DNA of 64,000 nt, taken from an uncultured Spartobacteria bacterium. GTDB taxonomy: Bacteria; Verrucomicrobiota; Verrucomicrobiia; Chthoniobacterales; Chthoniobacteraceae. Positions 3,192-46,725 of this stretch are shown piece after piece. Where the stretch lies: the NCBI GenBank assembly GCA_903882875.1, contig CAIRYQ010000084.1, positions 1 to 64,000 of the forward strand. The letters are read 5' to 3'. Numbering within the stretch: the stretch's first letter is position 1; each line of letters starts with the position of its first letter. The notes under the pieces were generated by a model. It was not told the origin of the DNA and made no database searches. It was given only the letters and a program-made list of their open reading frames with translations. A program made the position numbers and the translations under genes.

Positions 3192-4082
3192 ATGCCGAAA
3201 CCCATCACCGTGCGCGAGCCTGCGCCGCTGCTCGCCACGCTTTTTGCCGAATGGCCGCAGGAGAAGAAAAAGCAGATCCGCACCTGGCTGAAATTCCAGG
3301 CGGTGACGGTGAACGGGCGGCCCGAATCGCAATTCGATCATCCGCTGAAGCGCGGCGACGTGGTGACGGTTCGCACGGATCGTTTCGCGGTGCCGAAGAC
3401 GAAGCTCGGCGGCGGGATGAAGATTTTTTTCGAGGACGCTCACCTCATCGTGATTGATAAGCCGTCGGGCCTGCTGAGCATCGCGAGCGAGGCGGAGCCG
3501 GAGAAGACGGCCTACTACCAGCTCACGGAATATCTGCGCCACGGCAACCCGCGCGCGAAGGAACGCGTGTGGATCGTCCACCGGCTCGACCGCGAGACTT
3601 CGGGGCTGATGGTCTTTGCGAAGACGCCGCTGGTGAAGGAGACGCTGCAAAAATCGTGGGACACTTTCGAGAAGCGCTACGAGGCCGTCGTGGAGGGCAG
3701 ACTGCCAGGGGAGAATGGCACATTTGAGTCGGACCTCGATGAGTCGAATCCCTACCGCGTTCACAGCGCGACGCGCAGCGACCTGACGCGGCACGCGGTG
3801 ACGCACTGGCGCGTGATTGCGAGGAGCACCTGGCGATCGCTCGTGGAACTGACGCTCGAAACGGGGCGGCGTCACCAAATCCGCGTGCAGCTCGCGGACG
3901 CAGGATGCCCGATCGTAGGCGACGAGAAATACGGCGCGAAGAGCGATCCCGCGGGCCGGCTCGGGCTGCACTCGTGCATGTTAAAATTTTCGCACCCCGT
4001 CACGCGCGAGGCGATGCGTTTCGAGTCGCCGCTGCCGAAGGATCTCGCGGCGCTCGTGCGCGCGCCACGGCCCTCGGACTGA
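3192..4082 (+). CDS. RluA-family rRNA/tRNA pseudouridine synthase
   Basis: This protein of 296 residues has an S4-like RNA-binding region at about residues 10-65 and then the RluA catalytic core. HLIVIDKPSGLL lies at about 84-95, and the signature HRLDRETSGLM lies at 130-140 with catalytic Asp133. The segment LETGRRHQIRVQLADAGCPIVGDEKYG is the conserved second motif. It isomerises specific uridines in rRNA or tRNA to pseudouridine in the cytoplasm; which site cannot be told. The frame is open well upstream, but ATG 3192 gives the normal family length. It is divergent from the pilin operon, about 170 bp away. Confidence 0.93.
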   Translation: MPKPITVREPAPLLATLFAEWPQEKKKQIRTWLKFQAVTVNGRPESQFDHPLKRGDVVTVRTDRFAVPKTKLGGGMKIFFEDAHLIVIDKPSGLLSIASEAEPEKTAYYQLTEYLRHGNPRAKERVWIVHRLDRETSGLMVFAKTPLVKETLQKSWDTFEKRYEAVVEGRLPGENGTFESDLDESNPYRVHSATRSDLTRHAVTHWRVIARSTWRSLVELTLETGRRHQIRVQLADAGCPIVGDEKYGAKSDPAGRLGLHSCMLKFSHPVTREAMRFESPLPKDLAALVRAPRPSD

Positions 4083-11696: not shown

Positions 11697-14696
11697 ATGA
11701 AGAAGAACGTCTGGATTTTCCTGTTTGCGGTGCTGCTGCCGAGCGTGGTGCTCGGCTGGCTGGCTTTGCGCAGCGCGGAGGAACAGCAGATCGTCTTCGA
11801 GCGCAGGACGGCGGAACTTTACCAGAAGGAGACGGATTCGCTCGCGGTAACCGTGCGCGACACGGTGGATGCGGAGCGGCGCGCATTCGGCGAGACGGTC
11901 CACCGGCTGCTCGCACGCGGCGACGCGGAGGCGCTCGCGCGGGATTTTACAAATACGCTCGCGGATGCGTGGGAGGTGAAGGCCGTGGGTTTCGCGATCA
12001 ACCGCGACGGGAAACTCGCGTCGCCGTCCGTCGCGTCCGCGTCGAAGCAGCCGGAGCTTCAGCGGTTTCTCATCGGGAACGGCAGCTTCCTCACGAGCAC
12101 CGAGCCGGCGATCGTCTACAACTCGGCCGGCGACAATAACGCACTGCGGAACCCGAAGAATGAATATGGAAAAGGCCGCGCATTCGCGGGGCAGGCCGCG
12201 GGCAATGCGTATGCGAACACGGCGAACGCCGCGCCCGCGTCCGGAAATGGGACGAAGGATGCCGCGCAAGCTGCCGATGGAAAGACCGCTGGAAATGAGG
12301 TCGTGCTCCTCAACGATCGGGGCATCGGATCCGGAAACAGCATGATGAATCTTGGGAACCAACCGAACGATCCCGCCGGACTCCCAGGGCTGAAACAAAT
12401 CCAGCCGCAGGCTCCGATGAATCTCGGCACGACGATCGGGCCGACGGAAACGCAGACGCTCATGCTCAACAACATCGCGCAAAGTGTCTGCCAGATCATC
12501 CCAAACGCCGGCGCATTTGACTTCACCGGCCTCGTGTCCGCGCAGCCTGCACAGACGCTCGCGGCGCCGCTGAACGGAATGCCCCCGCCAAACATCATGC
12601 CGGGGAGCACGACGACGCTCAATTTTTCGTCACAAGGATTTGGCAGCGTGCAGCGGAAGGAAGCAGCCGGTTCTGCACCCGCGCCGGTCGTCCAGCCGGG
12701 TTTGTCCGCTGCGCCGATGGATACTGGCAAAAAGGAAACTCCTTCGTCGGCTGCGCCTTCGCCCACACTCGCAGCCGGAGGAGGGATCGCCGACGATCCG
12801 GTTCAGCGGAGGGCTCGTGAATTGAAGCTCGCGGAGAAGGAGTCCGCAAAATCAGGCATCGCTCCGGCAGGAAAGCCGGGTGGACTCCCGCTGGAGGTTG
12901 CGACGATGAAAATGAAATCTGCACAACCGACCGCGAGCGATGCGCTCCAAAAAGCCGCTGACGCCGAAAAAGGAGATCATCTGCTGCGAGACGCGCAGGC
13001 GTCGAAAGCGATGCCTTCCGCGGCACCCGTCCCGCAAGAAACCGAGGACCGCCCGACTTTGCCAAAAGCCGAAATGCTGCGCGCACAACCTGATCCCGCG
13101 GGTGCGGACAAGAAGCGCGACGTGCCTGCTCCCATGCCTCCGGGTGCCGCAGCACCGGCGCAGGCGCCGCTCCCGATGGGCCCGTCGTCCCCCGCATCAC
13201 GTGTCGCAGAAGATCAGGCGCGGAATTTTCCGGTGGCAAAAGCGCAGGCGGCGCCGCAGGGCGCATCACGGATTTTCCGCAAAGCCGACGCGCCGGCGGG
13301 CGCGCGGCCTGCGGACGAGGCGCCTGCGGAATCGCCACCGCTCGCAAAAAACGCGCTCGCGCTGAACCTCGCAAACAACGTCACGAGGCAGGTCGAGCCG
13401 CAGCAGATGCTCGGGCAGCAGAGCGCCGCGGTGTCCTCGATCATCCCGGAGACGGCGGAATTTCGCAGCCTCACCGAGGAGGGCGACGAAGGGCTCGTCG
13501 CGCGCTTCGTGCAGGACAAACTGAACCTCATCTTCTGGGTGCGCCCGCCCGAGGCGCCGGAGATGATCTTCGGATGCCTCGTCGAGGCCGCGCATTTTCC
13601 CGACCTGTGGAAGGACGTGCTCGATCGGCACGCCGCATCATCGCGCGGTTCGCGGGCGTCGCTGGAACCGAAGCCGGAGTTTGTCCTCGCGCTGCTCGAT
13701 GATCGCGGCAAGCCCGTCGCGACCCAGCCCGCGGACGCGGACGCGCGCGACTGGAAGCGGCCCTTCGTCGCGAGCGAAATCGGCGAGGCGCTGCCGCACT
13801 GGGAGGCGGCGCTCTATCTCGCAAGCCCGACGGCGCTCGCGGAAAGTGCGCGCGGACTGTGGCGCACGCTCGCATTCACCATCGCGGGCGCGGTGGCGCT
13901 CATCGCATTTGGCGGATGGCTCGTCGTCGCGGATGCGCGCAGGCAGCTCGCACTCGCGCAGCAGAAGACGGACTTCGTCTCGAACGTCTCACACGAACTC
14001 AAGACGCCGCTCACGAGCATTCGCATGTTCGCGGAGCTGATGCACGACCGACCGCAGCCCGCGGAAAAACAGAATCAGTATTTGCGCATTATCACCGTCG
14101 AGGCCGAGCGGCTCACGCGACTGATCAACAACGTGCTCGATTTTGCAAAAATCGGCCGCAAGCAGAAGCGGATCGAAAAGAAGCCGCTCGATCTTCATGC
14201 ACTCACCGCCCGCGTGTGGGAAGGACAGGAGATGCACCTGCGAGACGCAGGATTCACCACGCGCTGGGAGGCCGCACCGGGACCGTATCCCGTGCTCGGC
14301 GACGACGACGCGCTCGCCCAGGTGCTCGTGAACCTGCTCTCGAATGCGGAAAAATATTCGAACGGAAACAAGGATGTGGAGCTTCACACCTGGCTCGACG
14401 ACGGCCATGTGAACGTCTCCGTGCTGGACCGCGGCATGGGCGTGCCGAATGGCGATGACAAAAAAATCTTCGAGGCATTTTACCGCGCGCACGATTCGCT
14501 CGCGAGCGGCATCCAGGGCAGCGGCCTCGGCCTCACGCTCGCGCAGCGCATCGCGCACGAGCACGGCGGGGAGATTCGGTTTGAGCGTCGCGAGGGCGGC
14601 GGGTGCAGGTTCACATTGCGCGTGCCGCTGGCAAACGCGCAGGAGTCAGGAATCAAAGATCCGGGGGCAGAAAAAAGCTGGTCGCCTGACTCCTGA
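11697..14696 (+). CDS. Sensor histidine kinase with very long Ala/Pro-rich periplasmic region
   Basis: This protein of 999 residues has a first membrane helix at about 5-24 and a second at about 724-746. That leaves nearly 700 residues outside the membrane. Of these, about 150-600 are low-complexity Ala, Pro, Lys and Gly sequence. The first part (about 28-145) looks helical and the part before the second helix (about 600-720) looks folded. The cytoplasmic kinase is complete: His766 in FVSNVSHELKTP, the N box near 875 (VLVNLLSNAEKYS), and the G box near 941 (GSGLGLTLAQRIA). It would autophosphorylate and pass phosphate to the regulator encoded 44 bp downstream. Typical kinases are 350-600 residues, so the disordered insert is extreme. 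The signal is unknown. Confidence 0.9.
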   Translation: MKKNVWIFLFAVLLPSVVLGWLALRSAEEQQIVFERRTAELYQKETDSLAVTVRDTVDAERRAFGETVHRLLARGDAEALARDFTNTLADAWEVKAVGFAINRDGKLASPSVASASKQPELQRFLIGNGSFLTSTEPAIVYNSAGDNNALRNPKNEYGKGRAFAGQAAGNAYANTANAAPASGNGTKDAAQAADGKTAGNEVVLLNDRGIGSGNSMMNLGNQPNDPAGLPGLKQIQPQAPMNLGTTIGPTETQTLMLNNIAQSVCQIIPNAGAFDFTGLVSAQPAQTLAAPLNGMPPPNIMPGSTTTLNFSSQGFGSVQRKEAAGSAPAPVVQPGLSAAPMDTGKKETPSSAAPSPTLAAGGGIADDPVQRRARELKLAEKESAKSGIAPAGKPGGLPLEVATMKMKSAQPTASDALQKAADAEKGDHLLRDAQASKAMPSAAPVPQETEDRPTLPKAEMLRAQPDPAGADKKRDVPAPMPPGAAAPAQAPLPMGPSSPASRVAEDQARNFPVAKAQAAPQGASRIFRKADAPAGARPADEAPAESPPLAKNALALNLANNVTRQVEPQQMLGQQSAAVSSIIPETAEFRSLTEEGDEGLVARFVQDKLNLIFWVRPPEAPEMIFGCLVEAAHFPDLWKDVLDRHAASSRGSRASLEPKPEFVLALLDDRGKPVATQPADADARDWKRPFVASEIGEALPHWEAALYLASPTALAESARGLWRTLAFTIAGAVALIAFGGWLVVADARRQLALAQQKTDFVSNVSHELKTPLTSIRMFAELMHDRPQPAEKQNQYLRIITVEAERLTRLINNVLDFAKIGRKQKRIEKKPLDLHALTARVWEGQEMHLRDAGFTTRWEAAPGPYPVLGDDDALAQVLVNLLSNAEKYSNGNKDVELHTWLDDGHVNVSVLDRGMGVPNGDDKKIFEAFYRAHDSLASGIQGSGLGLTLAQRIAHEHGGEIRFERREGGGCRFTLRVPLANAQESGIKDPGAEKSWSPDS

Positions 14697-14740: not shown

Positions 14741-15436
14741 ATGAAAAAACACATCCTGATCGTCGAGGACGACGCCCACATCCGGCTCGGGCTGTGCGAG
14801 GCATTGCGCGCGGAGGGCTACGAGGTCACCGACTCCAGCTCGGGCACCGAGGCACTCCCGCTTTTCAAGCAACGCAAGCCCGATCTCGTCGTGCTCGACA
14901 TCATGCTGCCCGGCAAGAGCGGTTACGACATTTGCCGCGAGATCCGCGCGACGAAGAGTCGCGTGCCCATCCTCATGCTCAGCGCGAAAGGGCAGGAGGT
15001 GGACAAGGTCGTCGGCCTCGAACTCGGTGCGGACGACTACGTGACGAAGCCCTTTTCGCTCCGCGAATTCCTCGCGCGCGTACAGGCGCTGCTGCGGCGT
15101 TCGGACTTCACCGCCGAGCCCGCGGGCGATCTGCCGGAGGAGATCAAATTCGGAAAAGTACGCATCGAGACGAAGGCGCTGCGCGGCGTGCGCGGGAAGG
15201 AAAAATTCGAGCTGACGCCGCGCGAACTGAACGTGCTCGCGCTGCTTTTCCGCGAACGCGGCAACGCCGTCTCGCGCGACAAGATCCTGAACGAAATCTG
15301 GGGCATCGAATACTACGGCACGACGCGCACGCTCGATCAGCTCATCGTGAAGCTGCGCCAGAAAATCGAGGACGAGCCCGGCGAGCCTGTGCATCTGCTC
15401 ACCGTCCACGGCCTCGGCTACCGGCTCGACGCGTAG
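14741..15436 (+). CDS. OmpR/PhoB-family response regulator
   Basis: This protein of 231 residues has an N-terminal receiver domain with acidic pair Asp10-Asp11, phosphoacceptor Asp53 in VVLDIMLPG, and Lys103 in YVTKPFS. A C-terminal winged-helix domain follows (about 130-230), with ELTPRELNVLALLFRERGNAVSRDKIL and TVHGLGYRLDA. It binds DNA and controls transcription when phosphorylated by the kinase just upstream. The two genes form a kinase-first pair, 44 bp apart. Targets are not visible. All key residues are present. Confidence 0.94.
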   Translation: MKKHILIVEDDAHIRLGLCEALRAEGYEVTDSSSGTEALPLFKQRKPDLVVLDIMLPGKSGYDICREIRATKSRVPILMLSAKGQEVDKVVGLELGADDYVTKPFSLREFLARVQALLRRSDFTAEPAGDLPEEIKFGKVRIETKALRGVRGKEKFELTPRELNVLALLFRERGNAVSRDKILNEIWGIEYYGTTRTLDQLIVKLRQKIEDEPGEPVHLLTVHGLGYRLDA

Positions 15437-15505: not shown

Positions 15506-17221
15506 ATGAAACCCCCATTAGGGCTCGTCCTGTCATTGGTGTTGTCTTTCGTCGCGAGTGCGGAGGAGGGAACCGCGAGCGCCGCACGGCTCCTGCCTCC
15601 GGAGACGGTGATGTTCGCGGAGTTGCACGACCTGCCGCGCACGGTCGAGCGGTTCAGGAATACGTGCTGGGCCGAGATCGCCCGCGAACCGGAGATGCGG
15701 GATTTTTTCAAGAACCTGGGCCCAATGCTTGAAAAGCAGACGCCCGAGATAACGCGCGGCATCCTGGATGCAATCGCCAAGGCGGGGCCGGCCGCCGGTT
15801 TTTTCGCCCTGACCGAAATGCCGACACCCAAAGTGACGCGGGTGCCAAAAATGATCCTCGGAATTTCCTATCGAGGCGAGGCGCTGCACGCGCAGGCCCT
15901 GCTTGAAAAATTCCGCGACGCAATCCTCGCCGGCTCCCATGCGAAGGTGAAGTCCTCGAAGGAAACGATCGAAGGCACCGAGGTCGAAACTTTTGCCAAC
16001 AGCAAGTCCTCGCTCTCAGTCGTCCACGCAGACAAGTAAATCCTCGTGGCGACGGACAGGCAGCTCATGCTCGATGCGCTCGCGCGCAAGGCTGGGCACG
16101 GACCAGCTTCCCTCGCGCAGACCGACGCATGGAAAGCCGCGGCGAAGGAGGCTGTCGCCGAGCCGGACATGACGGCCTTTCTTGATTGCCAGAGCATGAT
16201 GAAGAAGCTCATGGAGGCCGGTGGCAGGGACACCGCGGTACTGACGGCGTTCCAGTCTTTCCTGCCGGAATTTGTGTCCGTCTCGACGAAATTTGACGGA
16301 CGCCTCATGCGCGAGCGGGCCTACGCGCAATTCAAAATGGTGCTGCCCCGTTCCGAGTCCAAGCATCGCTCGCTGGCATTCACCGGTGAGGACACTTTTG
16401 CCTACGTGGAAACCAACGTCGCGGGTGCCGTGGCGGCTGTGGAAAAAATCGCCGAGTTCGAACCGTCCATCAAGGACAGCAGCGAGCTGGGGCAATTCGG
16501 ACTCAGCTTCGACGACATTCCGAAAACGTTCGGTTCGGAAATCGCGATCGTCTCGGACTGGGAGTCCGGTGCGCTGGCGTTCCCGACGCTGTTCGCGTCC
16601 GTCGAACTGAAGGACGCGGAGAAGGGACGCAAGTTTGGCGGGCTGATCACCAGCGCGATGGGCTCCGGTGGCGAAGTGATCCAGAAGGATTATCACGGGA
16701 CGATGCTCTGGAGCCTGAAGGGCCCGATCCCGCTTTTTCAACCGACCCTCGCGGTGACCGACACGCATCTGATGTTCGGCATCAATCAGGGATCGGTCAC
16801 AGCGGCCCTCGATCACGCGAAGGATGGCAAGTCCATCGCCGGATCCGCACCCTTCGTCGCTGCGATGAAAACCGTGGCCGATTCCAATGACGGACTCGCG
16901 TACGTGGATTGCGGGCGGCTCGTCGAACGGCTTTACGAACGCGCCCGCCCGTTCATCACGGATGCCATTGCCCACAGCCCGGAGCTGGCGAAGCATTTCG
17001 ATGTGTCGCTGCTGCCGAAGATTGAGACCTTGAAGCGAAACATGCCGTCGTTTCTCGCAGGCTTCCAAGCTGGCGAGCACGGTTATGTCATCGAGAGCAC
17101 CGGACCGGTCACCTACCTCTCGGGAGTGGGCGGCGCGGCGTTTCTGGGGGGATTTTTCACATTCAAACGACAGGCTGCGCACGCAGCCGAGGAAGCCGCG
17201 CGCGCACAGAAAGACAGGTAG
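15506..17221 (+). pseudogene. Secreted protein of unknown family, interrupted by an in-frame stop
   Basis: A signal peptide (MKPPLGLVLSLVLSFVASAEE) starts at 15506. The frame runs to a TAA at 16037-16039 inside VHADK-stop-ILVATDRQLMLDA, then continues in the same frame to 17221. Together this would be about 571 residues. The ILVATD strand after the stop belongs with the sequence before it, so this reads as one gene with a nonsense change, not two genes. A GTG at 16046 could restart translation but would lack a signal peptide and has no clear ribosome site. I do not know the function. The pattern, repeated AGPAAGFFAL and LLVATD segments and a C-terminal helix, resembles DUF3352-like secreted proteins. 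Read mapping would separate a true pseudogene from an assembly error. Confidence 0.75.
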
Positions 17222-41331: not shown

Positions 41332-44103
41332 CTACTTTGCGGCAAATTCTTTTTGCGGCGGATCGAGGCTGAAGAGATTTTTTCCGCTCGCGGCATTCCA
41401 TGCGCGCAGCACGCTGTCCTGCCCGCCGCCGAGGATCGTCTGGCCGTCGGGCGTGATGACGGCGGAGAAGATGAAGCCCTTGCCGCCGGCGTAATCGCGC
41501 TGGGCGCTGCCGTCCTCCTTGAGCGTCCGCACTTTGGTGTCGCCGGACGTGGCGAGCATCTCGCCGCCGAGGCCGACGAAGCGGACGGACGTGACCTCCT
41601 TGCCGAAGCCCTCGATGGTCTTGAATTGCTCACCGGAGGGAAAACTCCAGAGCTTCACGACCTTGTCCGCGCCGCAGCTTGCGAGCGTGCGGCCGTCCGC
41701 GCGCCAGCTTACGCCGAAGACGTAGTGCGTGTGGCCGGCGAGCTGTTTCACGAGCTTGCCGGTGGCGCTGTCGAAAATCTTCACGAATTTGTCCGAGCTG
41801 GCCGTGGCGAGAAATTTGCCGTCGGGCGAAAAGGCGAGGCCGAAGACGGTGTCGCTGTGCGAGGGGAGGATTTCGCGGACGAGTGCGCTGTCGGCGGTGC
41901 GCCAAATCTTCAGTTCGCCGCTGCGCGAGGGAACGCCGCCACCGGTGGCGAGTAGTTTTCCGTCGGCGCTGAAGTCGAGCGCGAGGACGCGGCCTGCGAG
42001 CGGAGATTTTTCGTCGCCGGTGCCGATGGCGCGGGCGAGCGTCCAGTTCGGCCCGCTGCGCCAGACGACTGCGCCGTTTTTTGCGGAGCCGGAAATGAGG
42101 CGTCCGTCGGCGGTGTAGGCGAGTGCCTGCACGGGGCCGAGCTGGCTGGAGAAAGTGTCGAAGCCCGCACCGTCCTGCGCGCTCCAGGTGTGGACGATCT
42201 GGTCGTCGCCTGCGGTCGCGACGGTGAGATTTCCCGGCGCGAATGCCACGGCGCGCACGGGCTTCTCGCTGTCGGTCAGCGCCTTTTTCGCCGGCGCGAT
42301 TTCAGCCTCGGCTTTTTGCAAAAGTGCCTCGGCTTTTTCAGAGGCGGCCTTCGCATCGGCGACGGATTGCTCGGCTTGTTTCGCAGCAAGCTTCGCGGCT
42401 TCGAGTGCGGTTTCCGCTTTCTTCTTTGCGGACTCCGCGAATTTCACGGCGTCGTCGGCTGCGGGCTTGAGTTTGTCGTCCGTGACTTTTTCGCGCGCGG
42501 CTCTCTTCTCCGCGATGGTTTTCTCCGCAGCCGGGATCGCGTCCGCGGCTTTCTTCACAGCGTTCGCTTTTTCCGTCTGCGCTTTCATCGCTGCGTCCGA
42601 AGTCGTCTTCCAATACGCGACTTCACTCTTCGCAAACGCGAGCGCCGGCTCGCTCTGTGCGATGCGTGCGCGTGCGCGGTGATCGCCTTTCATTTCGCCG
42701 AGCGGCGCACCCTTGTCGGCGCTCCAAAGCCGCGCGGAATTCCCTCCGGCGGAGGCGAAGATTTTTCCGTTCGCCGAGACTGCGACTGAGAGCACGGGCG
42801 CGCCGTGATCCATCTGGCGCACCTGCTTCGCCGACTCGACGGACCAATGCCGCAATGAGCCGTCGCGGCTGCCGGAGAGCAGTTGTTTTCCGTCCGCGGG
42901 AAATGCTTCGAGGCTCGTGACCGGCTGCGTGTGGCCGGCGATGTCCTTGCCCGGCTTCAGCGCGCCGTCGGCCTGCGCGGGCAGTTGCCACTGGCGGATC
43001 ACGTTGTCGCCGCCCGCCGTCGCGAGTTGCTTCCCGCCGAGCGTCCATGCGAGTGCGCTGACTTCATCTGCGGTTTCCGTTTGCGCGAAATTTTCCCCCG
43101 CAGCGATGTCCCACACGCGGATCGTTTTGTCCGCGGAGCCGGATGCGAGCTTCGCGCTGTCGGGTGAAAACTTGAGGCAGCTCACGGCGGCGGTGTGGCC
43201 GGGGAGTTCCTTCGCCTGCTTTCCGGTCGCGGCGTCCCAGATTCGGATCACGTTGTCCTTCGCGGCAGTCGCGATCCATTTTCCATCGGCGCTCGTGGCC
43301 ATCGCGGAAACGGGGTCGGCACCGAGCGTGAATTGCGGGAGATACGGCTCCCGCTGCCAGAGCTTCACCATGCGATACTCGCCGGACGCGAGGACGAGGC
43401 CGTCGGGACTGAACGCGAGCGACTGCACGAAGTCGCGCTGCGCCGAACTGCGGTAGCCGCTGCGGCCCGTTTTTTCCGCGAGCTTCGGATCGGTGAGGCG
43501 CGCGACGATTTGGCCGGTCGGGATGTGGTAGATGAAAATCTGATTGGCACGTCCGCAGGCGGCAAACTGCCCGTCGCCCGTGACTGCGACCGCGAGGATC
43601 GGATGGAGCCCCGGCGGCAGCGGCTTCCATACGACGGGCTTTGCCTTCGCGGTGACGGTGCCCGTCGCGCCCTGATCGATCCACGCCTTGAGCAGCGCGA
43701 GTTCGTCCGGCTTCAGCGCCTCCGCGCCGACTTTGTTGTCCTTCGGCGGCATGAAGGGCTTGGCTTCCTTCGCGCTGGATTTGAGCAGCGAGCTCTCCTG
43801 CGATTTTCGCGGCACGACCACCGCGCCGCTTTCGCCGCCCTTCAAAATCGTCGCGGGCGTCTCCATCACGAGGTCGCCCTTCGCATCGGTCGCGTTGTGG
43901 CACGCGAGGCAGTTTCGTTTGAAAATCGGCAGGATCTGCGTCTCGAAATCCACCTTCTTCTGCTGCGCCGGGATCGCGGCGGGAGCGGCGCTTTTGGGAG
44001 CCGGCGTTTCCGCGGCGGACAAATGCGGCAGTGCCATCGAGAACAAGACTGCAGAAAGCATCCGAAAAATCCCCGGCAATCGCGTTTCCAAAAAGCGGGT
44101 CAT
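41332..44103 (-). CDS. Cytochrome c-WD40 fusion protein with coiled-coil insert
   Basis: This protein of 923 residues has a signal peptide (about residues 10-31, FSMALPHLSAAE). A PSCyt1-type haem domain has CLACH at 65-69 (FETQILPIFKRNCLACHN). WD40 repeats follow, with GH-x-x-x-V and IWD or LWS ends. They are split by a 120-residue Ala/Lys/Glu coiled coil (AMKAQTEKANAVKKAADAIPAAEK), after which more WD40 repeats follow to the C-terminus. Such planctomycetal-type cytochrome-WD40 proteins are typical of PVC bacteria and act outside the cytoplasm. It is divergent from the DUF1549/DUF1553 gene across 144 bp, a pairing often seen. ATG 44061 (internal Met) is an alternative start; the much longer open frame to 44859 is antisense to the neighbour. 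Confidence 0.87.
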   Translation of the reverse strand: MTRFLETRLPGIFRMLSAVLFSMALPHLSAAETPAPKSAAPAAIPAQQKKVDFETQILPIFKRNCLACHNATDAKGDLVMETPATILKGGESGAVVVPRKSQESSLLKSSAKEAKPFMPPKDNKVGAEALKPDELALLKAWIDQGATGTVTAKAKPVVWKPLPPGLHPILAVAVTGDGQFAACGRANQIFIYHIPTGQIVARLTDPKLAEKTGRSGYRSSAQRDFVQSLAFSPDGLVLASGEYRMVKLWQREPYLPQFTLGADPVSAMATSADGKWIATAAKDNVIRIWDAATGKQAKELPGHTAAVSCLKFSPDSAKLASGSADKTIRVWDIAAGENFAQTETADEVSALAWTLGGKQLATAGGDNVIRQWQLPAQADGALKPGKDIAGHTQPVTSLEAFPADGKQLLSGSRDGSLRHWSVESAKQVRQMDHGAPVLSVAVSANGKIFASAGGNSARLWSADKGAPLGEMKGDHRARARIAQSEPALAFAKSEVAYWKTTSDAAMKAQTEKANAVKKAADAIPAAEKTIAEKRAAREKVTDDKLKPAADDAVKFAESAKKKAETALEAAKLAAKQAEQSVADAKAASEKAEALLQKAEAEIAPAKKALTDSEKPVRAVAFAPGNLTVATAGDDQIVHTWSAQDGAGFDTFSSQLGPVQALAYTADGRLISGSAKNGAVVWRSGPNWTLARAIGTGDEKSPLAGRVLALDFSADGKLLATGGGVPSRSGELKIWRTADSALVREILPSHSDTVFGLAFSPDGKFLATASSDKFVKIFDSATGKLVKQLAGHTHYVFGVSWRADGRTLASCGADKVVKLWSFPSGEQFKTIEGFGKEVTSVRFVGLGGEMLATSGDTKVRTLKEDGSAQRDYAGGKGFIFSAVITPDGQTILGGGQDSVLRAWNAASGKNLFSLDPPQKEFAAK

Positions 44104-44247
44104 CTGAAAAATCTGTCGTCTAAGGAAAGGGGCGGGATTCACTCGTTGAAGGGACATGTTTTGCCAACCGCTCACCAACCCTCCGCCTTTCGTGCGGGAG
44201 AACTTTTGCGCGAGCGATGCGCCACGATAAGAGCCGCCTTTTGTTTC
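44104..44247. promoter_or_regulatory. Divergent promoter region
   Basis: 144 bp lie between the starts of the leftward cytochrome-WD40 gene and the rightward DUF1549/DUF1553 gene. Both promoters should be here, so joint control is likely. I cannot assign clear -35/-10 boxes or an operator. Confidence 0.35.
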
Positions 44248-46725
44248 ATGCTTAGACGTTCGATTTATTTTGCGATGCTGGCCTCGGCCGCGTCGGTCGG
44301 TTTTGCGGTGGATGCGCCGCGCATTTCGGAAGTGATCGTCGAGCCTGCGGAGATCGTGCTCACGGACGCCGACCAGTCGGTGCAATTTCTCGTCACGCTC
44401 AAGATGAGCGACGGCACCCTGCGCGACGGCACGCGGCAGGCGGAGTATGCGATTCAGCTCGCGGAAGGCAGCGGCGCGCCGGAGAGCGTCGCGGCGGTTG
44501 AGCACGGGCGGCTCGTGCCGAAGGGCGACGGCGCGGTGATGGTCGTGACGACGGTGACGGATCCGGTTTCGGGCAAAAAAGCGGGCGCTTCGGCGAAGGC
44601 GACGGTGCAGAATTTCGCCGTCGAGCGTGAGCTGCATTTCGTGAACGACATCGAGCCCATCCTCACGAAGACCGGATGCAATGCGGGCGGCTGCCACGGC
44701 AAGCAGTCCGGGCAAAACGGATTCAAGCTCTCGCTCTTCGCATTCGAGCCGAAGTTCGACTACGACGCGCTGGTGAACGAAGCGCACGGACGCCGCGTTT
44801 TTCCCGCCTCGCCCGAGGAGTCGCTGCTGCTGAAAAAATCCACCGGCGCGACGGTGCATGGCGGCGGTTCACGCTTCGATGAAAAGTCGGAGTCCTACAA
44901 ATTACTTGCGCGCTGGATCGCGCAGGGCGTGCCTTACGGCGACGAGAAGGCGCCGACGGTTGCGCGCATCGAGGTGCTGCCGCGCGAACGCCTGCTCGCC
45001 GGAGTCGGCGAACAGCAACTCCGCGTGATCGCGCATTTCACCGACGGCGCGGCGCACGACGTGACGCGGCAGGCGGAATACAAGGCGCAGCAGCCGGACA
45101 TTTTGAAAGTCGAGCCCACCGGCCTCGTGACCACGCTCGGCCACACCGGCGAAGGCGCGGTGATGGTGCGCTACATGGGCCAGGTGGATGTCGCGCGCGT
45201 CGCGGTGCCGTTTAGCCGCGGGCTGCCGGAGTCGGCCTACGCGCAGTTTGAGCCGAAGAATTTCGTGGACAATCTGGTCGCCGAAAAATGGCGCAAGCTC
45301 GGCATCGCGCCGAGCGCGGTGTGCTCGGATGCGGAGTTCCTGCGCCGCGCGAGCCTCGATGCGATCGGCACTTTGCCGACGCCCGAGGAGACGCAGAAAT
45401 TTCTCGCCGACACCGCGCCGGACAAACGCGACCGGCTGATCGACAGCCTTCTCGAACGCAACGAATACGCGAGCTATTGGGCGAACCAGTGGGGTGACCT
45501 TCTGCGCGTGAAACGCGGCGGCAACAACGAGCTAAAGGCCGGCACTTTCGCCTTCTCGGGCTGGCTGCGGAATGCCTTCGCGCAAAACATGCCCTACGAT
45601 CAGTTCGTGCGCGCCATCCTCACCGCGCAGGGCGAGTCCGCGGAAAATCCGCCGATCAACTGGTATCGCCACGTGCGCAACACGGTCGCGATGGTGAACG
45701 ACACGAGTCAGCTTTTCATGGGCACGCGCATCTCGTGCGCGAACTGCCACAACCATCCCTACGAGCGCATCACGCAGGACGACTACTGGGGCTTCGGCGC
45801 GTTCTTCGGGCGGCTTTCGTTCAAGCGCGGGCTTGGCAACGAACAGGCGGTCATCGTGAAAAAGGACGGCGGCGTGAACCAGCCGCGCACCGGCCAGAGC
45901 ATGAAGCCGAAGGGCCTCGGCGGGCCGGAATACGAATACGTCCGCGGCGAAGACCCGCGGCAGAAACTCGCCGACTGGCTGACCGAGCCGGGCAATCCGT
46001 ATTTTGCAAAGGCGATCGTCAATCGCACATGGGCGCACTTCATGGGCGTCGGTCTCGTCGAGGCCGTGGACGACATGCGCGTGACGAATCCGCCGAGCAA
46101 CCCGCAGCTCCTCGATGCGCTCGCGAAAGATTTCACCGACTACCGCTACGACCTGAAGCACCTCGTCGCTACGATCATGAAGTCGCGCGCATATAGCCTC
46201 AGCTCCGAGCCGACGGAATTCAACAAGACCGACCGGCAGAACTACGCGCGCTACACGCCGAAGCGCCTCTCCGCCGAGACACTGCTGGACGCGATCGGCA
46301 ATGTCACCGGCACGCAGGAAAAATTCGCCGGCCTGCCGCTCGGCACGCGCGCGATCGATCTGCCCGACGAATCCGTCCCGAGCTATTTCCTGAAAGTCTT
46401 CGGCCGCTCGATGCGCGAGAGTGCGTGCGAATGTGAACGCAGCTACGCGCCGAACCTCTCGCAGATTTTGCACCTGATGAATTCACCCGAGGTGCAGGAC
46501 AAAATCGCCAGCGACAAGGGCCGGCTCGCCGCGATGCTCAAGGACAAGAAACCGGACGATCAGATTCTCACCGAGTTTTACCTGCGCGCATTTGGCCGCA
46601 CCCCGAAGCCCGACGAACTCAAGGACGCCACGGCGATGCTCGCGTCCGCGAAGGATCGCAAGAGCGCACTTGAGGACTTCGAGTGGATGTTTCTGAACTC
46701 GAAGGAATTTCTTTTTAACCACTAA
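44248..46725 (+). CDS. DUF1549/DUF1553 PSCyt-type secreted protein
   Basis: This protein of 825 residues has a signal peptide (1-20). A Big2-like domain comes first (about 25-125). A CNAGGCH site at 144-150 of the PSCyt1-related type (KTGCNAGGCHG) is followed by a second Big2-like domain. DUF1549 follows (FVDNLVAEKWRKLGIAPS, DDYWGFGAFFGRLS) with a CANCHNHP site. DUF1553 is C-terminal (FAKAIVNRTWAHFMGVGLVE, APNLSQILHLMNSPEVQDKI). The family is typical of PVC bacteria and always neighbours a DUF1501 gene, which here starts 18 bp after the stop. ATG 44248 begins the signal peptide; a longer frame upstream is antisense to the WD40 gene. Redox role presumed, substrate unknown. Confidence 0.9.
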   Translation: MLRRSIYFAMLASAASVGFAVDAPRISEVIVEPAEIVLTDADQSVQFLVTLKMSDGTLRDGTRQAEYAIQLAEGSGAPESVAAVEHGRLVPKGDGAVMVVTTVTDPVSGKKAGASAKATVQNFAVERELHFVNDIEPILTKTGCNAGGCHGKQSGQNGFKLSLFAFEPKFDYDALVNEAHGRRVFPASPEESLLLKKSTGATVHGGGSRFDEKSESYKLLARWIAQGVPYGDEKAPTVARIEVLPRERLLAGVGEQQLRVIAHFTDGAAHDVTRQAEYKAQQPDILKVEPTGLVTTLGHTGEGAVMVRYMGQVDVARVAVPFSRGLPESAYAQFEPKNFVDNLVAEKWRKLGIAPSAVCSDAEFLRRASLDAIGTLPTPEETQKFLADTAPDKRDRLIDSLLERNEYASYWANQWGDLLRVKRGGNNELKAGTFAFSGWLRNAFAQNMPYDQFVRAILTAQGESAENPPINWYRHVRNTVAMVNDTSQLFMGTRISCANCHNHPYERITQDDYWGFGAFFGRLSFKRGLGNEQAVIVKKDGGVNQPRTGQSMKPKGLGGPEYEYVRGEDPRQKLADWLTEPGNPYFAKAIVNRTWAHFMGVGLVEAVDDMRVTNPPSNPQLLDALAKDFTDYRYDLKHLVATIMKSRAYSLSSEPTEFNKTDRQNYARYTPKRLSAETLLDAIGNVTGTQEKFAGLPLGTRAIDLPDESVPSYFLKVFGRSMRESACECERSYAPNLSQILHLMNSPEVQDKIASDKGRLAAMLKDKKPDDQILTEFYLRAFGRTPKPDELKDATAMLASAKDRKSALEDFEWMFLNSKEFLFNH

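Follow-up and report, generated by a model that had tools for sequence, protein, structure and literature searches.

A loop of widely varying length at a fixed site in the putative dCache-like sensor of a Verrucomicrobiota histidine kinase

Background

Sensor kinases of the Cache type respond to a ligand or partner through the folded lobes of the sensor, from which the resulting change passes by way of the long N-terminal helix and the second transmembrane helix (TM2) into the HisKA domain. The sensors Tlp3 (4xmq), LuxQ (3c38) and KinD (4jgq), which we take to belong to the dCache class, lie between two transmembrane (TM) helices and combine a long N-terminal helix with two alpha/beta lobes. 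The present work concerns a histidine kinase gene at positions 11697-14696 of a 64,000-nucleotide stretch of DNA (referred to throughout as the window: contig CAIRYQ010000084.1 of assembly GCA_903882875.1, from an uncultured Spartobacteria bacterium), whose predicted sensor shares this arrangement but differs from the dCache sensors in that it is 8-11% identical to them, is matched by no Pfam Cache profile, and has its first lobe interrupted by a loop which ranges from about 5 to 422 residues across the family.

In its kinase core and its regulator the locus resembles the PhoR, WalK and PnpS kinases and their PhoB and YycF regulators, which supply the best-scoring models for both proteins; it departs from them in that its scores fall under the model cut-offs, no HAMP or PAS domain is detected by Pfam, and the sensor has no family match. 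The passage of PMC4822843 that bears on large insertions in Cache domains mentions them as outliers of a length plot, and where that is a remark, the locus described here belongs to a single family in which the site of insertion is fixed and for which a range of lengths and evolutionary rates are available. As passages of PMC8980812 present it, the PodJ-PleC system likewise couples a disordered region to a sensor kinase, but that region is cytoplasmic, belongs to a separate scaffold protein and binds the PAS domains of the kinase. Titles and abstract openings listed in the literature searches contained no description of a loop or kinase family such as the one considered here.

Computation establishes the anatomy of the kinase, its intact reading frame, the fixed site of the insertion, its variation in length, a relaxed but present constraint upon it, and the pairing of the kinase with a response regulator. 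From these results we consider it likely that sensing and signalling reside in the conserved folded domain, and that the loop is an appendage, weakly constrained and tolerated at the surface, which at most modulates the kinase.

Results

Architecture of the kinase

The gene is a single 999-residue open reading frame (ORF) without interruption, and its parts are as follows.

11697..12119, plus strand: N-terminal part of the histidine kinase, residues 1-141, with the first TM helix (residues ~5-24), a long helix, and the first strands and helices of the distal lobe of the putative dCache-like sensor
12120..13385, plus strand: predicted disordered loop rich in Ala, Pro and polar residues, residues 142-563 (422 residues), from composition, AlphaFold2 (AF2) and the absence of a Pfam match
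12282..12656, plus strand: Met/Asn/Pro/Thr-rich sub-insert, residues 196-320, with a convincing match only in G004 among 10 genomes of the genus
13386..13862, plus strand: second part of the putative dCache-like sensor (conserved block A3), residues 564-722, from the RxVxP motif onwards
13866..13934, plus strand: TM2, residues ~724-746, running into HisKA with no HAMP domain detected (hydropathy; Pfam)
13962..14156, plus strand: HisKA dimerisation and phosphoacceptor domain, residues 756-820 (Pfam PF00512, E 4.1e-22), with the motif SHELKTP at 765 (phosphoacceptor H766)
14298..14633, plus strand: HATPase_c catalytic domain, residues 868-979 (Pfam PF02518, E 1.8e-24), with the N, G1 and G2 box motifs at 879, 911 and 941

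Kyte-Doolittle hydropathy exceeds 1.6 (19-residue windows) only within residues 1-27 and 720-747, so that some 700 residues are expected to lie outside the inner membrane, in agreement with the first-pass annotation of the window, which had placed about that many between two membrane helices. The same annotation had described roughly 450 of them as rich in Ala and Pro; the composition was correctly read (Ala+Pro make up 32% of the insert), while the count is slightly lower, at the 422 residues which separate the conserved flanks.

The phosphoacceptor histidine, the HATPase_c motifs and the adjoining response regulator gene together characterize the protein as a HisKA sensor kinase, and Pfam gives in addition a match to HATPase_c_2 below threshold. 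The best NCBIfam scores of the kinase core are to the PnpS, WalK and PhoR models, with none reaching its equivalog cut-off (179 against 400 bits, 178 against 725 and 162.5 against 334, respectively), and for kinase and regulator alike the 25 highest scores listed all stay below their cut-offs. The genome has 42 HisKA matches in open frames of 270-1382 residues, a range in which periplasmic length and extra domains are not separable. Five named relatives of the locus are Verrucomicrobiota records, two of them labelled Chthoniobacteraceae, one Spartobacteria and one Prosthecobacter, and the window probably belongs near these.

Length variation at a fixed site

Fourteen members of the kinase family, including that of the window (G000), were extracted from the same family of genomes and aligned. 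H766 is identical in all of them, the first sensor block ends at residue 141-142 in every case, and the second begins at the conserved RxVxP motif, from which the remainder of the sensor, as far as the D[AV]RRQ motif, differs in length among members by roughly twelve residues. The N-terminal part (block A4) of the window protein is 96% identical to that of its nearest relative, G004, and 52-76% identical to those of the 12 other orthologues, for which the corresponding identities in the second part (block A3) are 53-67%. Between these blocks lie inserts of 422 (G000), 416 (G004), 274 (G008), 253 (G001), 252 (G007), 165 (G014), 161 (G023), 129 (G024), 126 (G033), 108 (G028), 99 (G009), 79 (G018), 54 (G002) and 51 (G006) residues. 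The expectation that the flanks would be conserved among relatives while the insert varied is therefore borne out, with flanks of nearly constant length and inserts spanning 51-422 residues.

A profile of the second block found matches in 29 of 384 genomes of the class (22 of 171 genera, one match each), in 21 of 213 genomes of the order, and in 6 of 387 genomes in a search of the phylum; four of these six lie outside the class, with weak E-values of 2e-9 to 5e-8, and in none of the four was the first block recognized. In twenty-one further members of the class the two blocks share a single frame and lie 14-356 residues apart, and in G412 (locus L108), from the same order, the loop measures about 5 residues, its end being extrapolated across 12 unaligned profile positions, which makes this gene a natural near-deletion. 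Over the 36 measured members the loop ranges from about 5 to 422 residues, with a median of about 95, its end having been extrapolated wherever the alignment missed the first 4-23 positions of the second block (as in G412) or, in G192, the final positions of the first. Left out of this tabulation are the partial genes of G005 and G462, whose loops would be 251 and 73 residues long, the 236-residue partial frame of G302, and the weak relatives outside the class with an unrecognized N block (G620, G633, G779 and G722), which were kept in the tree; the Algoriphagus locus L044 (32% identity, in the kinase only) was not used. By eye, the kinases L109-L112 from outside the class have a related second block and a short stretch rich in Ala, Pro, Arg and Ser in roughly the same place. 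G003, an assembly of 790 contigs, is the only one of the 10 genus genomes with no second-block match, an absence which may be a gap.

In a tree of the folded parts, the window's genus forms a clade with loops of 252-422 residues (support 94/89), whose sister group consists of G006 and G002 (51-54 residues) together with G009 (99 residues), and several deep forks are open. Far from this clade, G180, with a loop of 356 residues, pairs with G072, with one of 137 (support 95/86), and the simplest account is that very long loops originated on two or more occasions. The pairing with G072 sets the G180 gene (L075) apart from G176 and G265, with which it shares the family label f39, and may reflect a transfer, the loss of copies or an error in placing the branch.

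Reading frame, evolutionary rates and sequence turnover

The flanks, the insert and the kinase share one frame both in the window and in G004, which comes from another assembly and has 416 in-frame residues at the insert site. Where they can be aligned, the two inserts are 50% identical, compared with 96% for both sensor flanks, and their differences fall predominantly at third codon positions (203, against 141 at first and 108 at second positions). The ratio of nonsynonymous to synonymous substitution rates (dN/dS) for this pair is 0.36 in the insert (bootstrap range 0.27-0.47) and 0.07 in the sensor flanks (0.04-0.11), and for G007 and G001 it is 0.42 (0.31-0.61) and 0.04 (0.02-0.07); the pair G006 and G002 does not separate the two regions, with 0.19 in the insert, 0.13 in the flanks and overlapping ranges. 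A homologous insert in frame and a ratio of 0.36 indicate that the insert is translated and constrained, though far less so than its flanks.

These results also bear on whether the insert is real, the first-pass annotation having named a frameshift as a finding that would undo its claim. The assembly that contains the window is a draft of 129 contigs, and the insert resembles no known domain, having no Pfam match, as might be expected if it had been produced by a frameshift, a chimera or an assembly error. Barring the same error in two assemblies, there is nevertheless practically no chance that it is such an artefact, since another assembly holds a homologous 416-residue insert in the shared frame and since the preponderance of third-position differences and the dN/dS ratio are those of a translated sequence; the insert is not the product of a frameshift.

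The similarity of pairs of inserts was evaluated as the local alignment score relative to 100 shuffles, expressed as z. It is very high for close pairs (z 65 for G000 and G004, 79 for G007 and G001) and is mostly lost beyond them: the insert of the window scores -0.8 against G008, 1.2 against G007, -0.7 against G006 and 1.3 against G009, and G008 against G007 scores 2.1, while the flanks of G000 are still 65-76% identical to those of G008 or G007. By this measure the loop sequence is mostly unrecognizable outside the closest species pairs.

Composition and predicted disorder of the insert

The first-pass annotation had regarded most of the external stretch as disordered, and as a prediction this holds for the insert. 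In the AF2 model of the full protein (14 sequences) there is no helix of 4 or more residues and no strand of 3 or more between residues 134 and 588, the elements bordering the gap being the helices 119-133 and 589-593, and the block means of the predicted local distance difference test (pLDDT) are 27-45 over residues 141-580. The mean over the whole model is itself only 50, so that the disorder of the insert is supported and not proved. The residues W, F, Y, I, L, V and C make up 15% of the window insert, compared with 28% of the sensor flanks; among the 14 members the corresponding ranges are 11-19% and 27-30%, and Ala+Pro account for 20-35% of the inserts.

The composition expected from base composition alone was represented by random sequence at the four-fold-site base frequencies of each gene. 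Ala+Pro exceed this null in only 6 of the 14 members, from which it appears that their richness is approximately what drift in GC-rich DNA would produce, a result that fits tolerance and not design. Comparison with shuffles of the insert's own codon positions gave a mixed result.

No Pfam match to the insert was found at E up to 10, and the odd Met/Asn/Pro patch pointed out in the first-pass annotation, which spans residues ~196-320 (125 residues), is likewise without a Pfam match. Among the 10 genomes of the genus it has one convincing match, in G004 (48% identity, E 3.2e-28), the others reaching only E 0.17-0.6, and the possibility that the insert is a mobile or shared domain was rejected on these grounds. 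An origin in tandem repeats of DNA is also unsupported, as the gene contains just two arrays, of 21 and 16 bases.

Fold of the sensor

The fold was modelled with AF2 on the short-loop sensor of G006 (locus L014; 369 residues, 14 sequences), and the best of the five models has a mean pLDDT of 71, the others having 69, 56, 55 and 55. It contains a long helix (residues 2-74) and two groups of strands, consistent with the long N-terminal helix and two PAS-like lobes of a dCache sensor, and its position between two TM helices is extracytoplasmic, as in that class. The block means of pLDDT are 82-93 over residues 41-140, 80-92 over 211-270 and 55-84 from there to TM2, and values below 50 occur only at 148-209, between the strands 139-145 and 213-215, where the insert leaves and re-enters the first, distal lobe.

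In structural alignment with VIA-align, Tlp3 (Z 10.3, root-mean-square deviation (rmsd) 5.7 over 203 residues), LuxQ (Z 9.9, rmsd 3.6 over 189) and KinD (Z 9.9, rmsd 4.6 over 186) stand near the top, in rows covering model residues 26-338. The leading Foldseek matches in the PDB, at weak E-values, come from the extracytoplasmic sensors of kinases and chemoreceptors (rmsd ~9-13 in the first ten). By sequence, no PDB chain was matched at E up to 1, and in Pfam the 14 sensors gave two lone matches at E 0.17-0.2, neither to a Cache family. Since the sensor lacks a sequence match to any Pfam Cache family, it is described here as having a dCache-like fold, which the model suggests, without being assigned to any named Cache family.

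Response regulator and gene neighbourhood

Downstream of the kinase lies its probable partner.

14741..15436, plus strand: OmpR-family response regulator of 231 residues, probable cognate of the kinase (Pfam PF00072, receiver, and PF00486, Trans_reg_C)

The regulator gene starts 44 bases past the kinase stop, and its best NCBIfam scores are to the YycF, RpaB, MtrA and PhoB models (220 bits for YycF, against a cut-off of 340). The neighbourhood was compared using the genes of the window only, within the sequence stretches around the other loci. In 32 of the 33 other loci a regulator match follows the kinase in the same orientation; 29 of these matches are nearly full length and three are partial (33 residues in G033, and 153 in G384 and 107 in G072, both cut near the end of the stretch). 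In the remaining locus, G180, no regulator match occurs within 2.2 kb downstream of the kinase. The match in G033 (L016, ~3582-3680) spans just 33 residues, and the gene is possibly frameshifted or broken in that assembly. Of seven neighbouring window genes used as queries, only the regulator was matched beside the kinase in most of the 33 other loci, and the aminotransferase and part of the gene preceding it were found in G004 alone.

Elsewhere in the window, a DUF3352-like gene (15506-17221) carries one in-frame stop (16037-16039) that divides it into parts of 177 and 391 residues in the same frame, and is either a real pseudogene or the result of a sequencing error. Two putative ORFs on the minus strand, 41335-44859 and 1174-2508, include low-order stretches rich in Ala and Pro, 187 and 136 residues long.

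Discussion

The mechanism that we favour would be that of an ordinary two-component sensor. A ligand or partner would bind the conserved, folded dCache-like domain and shift its long N-terminal helix together with its C-terminal helix and TM2, which would continue into HisKA with no intervening HAMP domain, and phosphate would then pass from H766 to the OmpR-type regulator and alter transcription. The insert, unusually long at 422 residues in the window, would form a surface loop of the distal lobe at an insertion-tolerant site, evolving rapidly in sequence and length, and would at most shield the lobe or modulate access to it. In the model the loop leaves and rejoins the same lobe, so that it would not stand in series between the domain and the membrane, and because it may have about 5 residues or 422 it is unlikely to be essential to the mechanism shared by the family, though it may modulate it. 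The loop is thus probably not the sensor itself.

Several observations weigh against this interpretation. A dN/dS well below 1 and a biased composition in all 14 members imply that the loop is not wholly free and may have a job. Relative to the four-fold-site null, Lys and the group Gln, Glu, Asp and Asn are high, and Arg and Trp+Cys are low, in 14 of 14 members; this pattern of charge and of Trp and Cys hints weakly at constraint, coding DNA in general departing from such a null. Order-promoting residues as a class are not depleted relative to it, being higher in 8 of the 14, and the Uversky charge-hydropathy line places 7 of the 14 inserts, including that of the window, on the folded side and 7 on the disordered side. 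The wider pairs G000/G014, G033/G024 and G018/G023 reach z 3.6-4.1, so that some loop sequence may be shared among them; for G033/G024, the one pair to which trimming was applied, the signal falls to z 1.5 when 25 residues are removed from each end. As to the fold, the dCache assignment depends on a single AF2 model (mean pLDDT 71; of the five models, two exceed 65), Foldseek gives nothing better than a weak E-value of 1.8e-3 (rmsd 11.6), and Pfam Cache families match neither the window protein (E up to 0.1) nor the 14 sensors (E up to 1).

A further possibility is that the loop is a functional disordered gate, in which selection keeps a polar loop of tunable length, rich in Lys over Arg and poor in Trp and Cys, at one site of the distal lobe, its length sets the threshold of the kinase by excluding large molecules or reading out periplasmic crowding, and lineages tune their sensitivity by making the loop longer or shorter and not through the binding domain; we regard this as distinctly unlikely. 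The first-pass annotation had suggested a flexible cell-surface probe or an envelope-stress spring. A loop of up to 422 residues, as in the window, might cross the periplasm to touch the peptidoglycan, the outer membrane or a partner, placing the kinase or reporting contact with the envelope, and this idea draws on the purifying constraint (dN/dS 0.36), on the apparent repeated origin of long loops and, from passages of PMC8980812, on the disordered region that binds a kinase PAS domain in PodJ-PleC. It is nonetheless unlikely, given that half of the 36 measured loops are shorter than 95 residues and, as polymer scaling would suggest, probably too short for far reach, and that little sequence is shared beyond the closest pairs and no Pfam domain is found in the insert.

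An entropic spring or crowding sensor, in which the loop changes volume with osmotic or mechanical conditions in the periplasm and so strains the lobe holding both its ends, would suit a loop whose ends lie in the same lobe of the model, where expansion could pull, and whose polar, order-poor composition recurs across the class; we think it very unlikely, because the length that would set the entropic force is not conserved, the loop appears to lie outside the path from domain to membrane, and the comparison of window genes, which covered those genes only, found no linked gene related to the envelope. A probe or spring serving the whole family would be expected to preserve some minimum reach or a motif, and with lengths of about 5 to 422 residues, the nearly loopless G412 and little shared sequence, these proposed roles find no support and are disfavoured, although a role particular to some long-loop lineages may exist. 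Disordered, exposed segments are typical protease substrates, and periplasmic cleavage in a loop of such length and freedom of sequence could nick or release the distal lobe and so switch the kinase; we give this a slim chance at best, for nothing points to a site, no search for cleavage sites having been made, and G412 has almost no loop to cleave. The tolerated appendage on a sensing folded domain remains the interpretation that we prefer.

Conclusions

What appears to be new is the family, together with its fixed insertion site and the contrast in length and rate measured here, and the kinase appears to be a striking variant of an ordinary two-component sensor. It marks a dCache-like sensor of Verrucomicrobiota which is seen by no Pfam profile. 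The natural series of loop lengths (~5, 14, 19, 42 ... 422 residues) in otherwise conserved kinases makes the effect of a disordered insertion on signalling testable, with the near-deletion in G412 as a useful control, and if the loop should prove neutral, the family would still be a clean case of an insertion-tolerant point in a dCache-like lobe.

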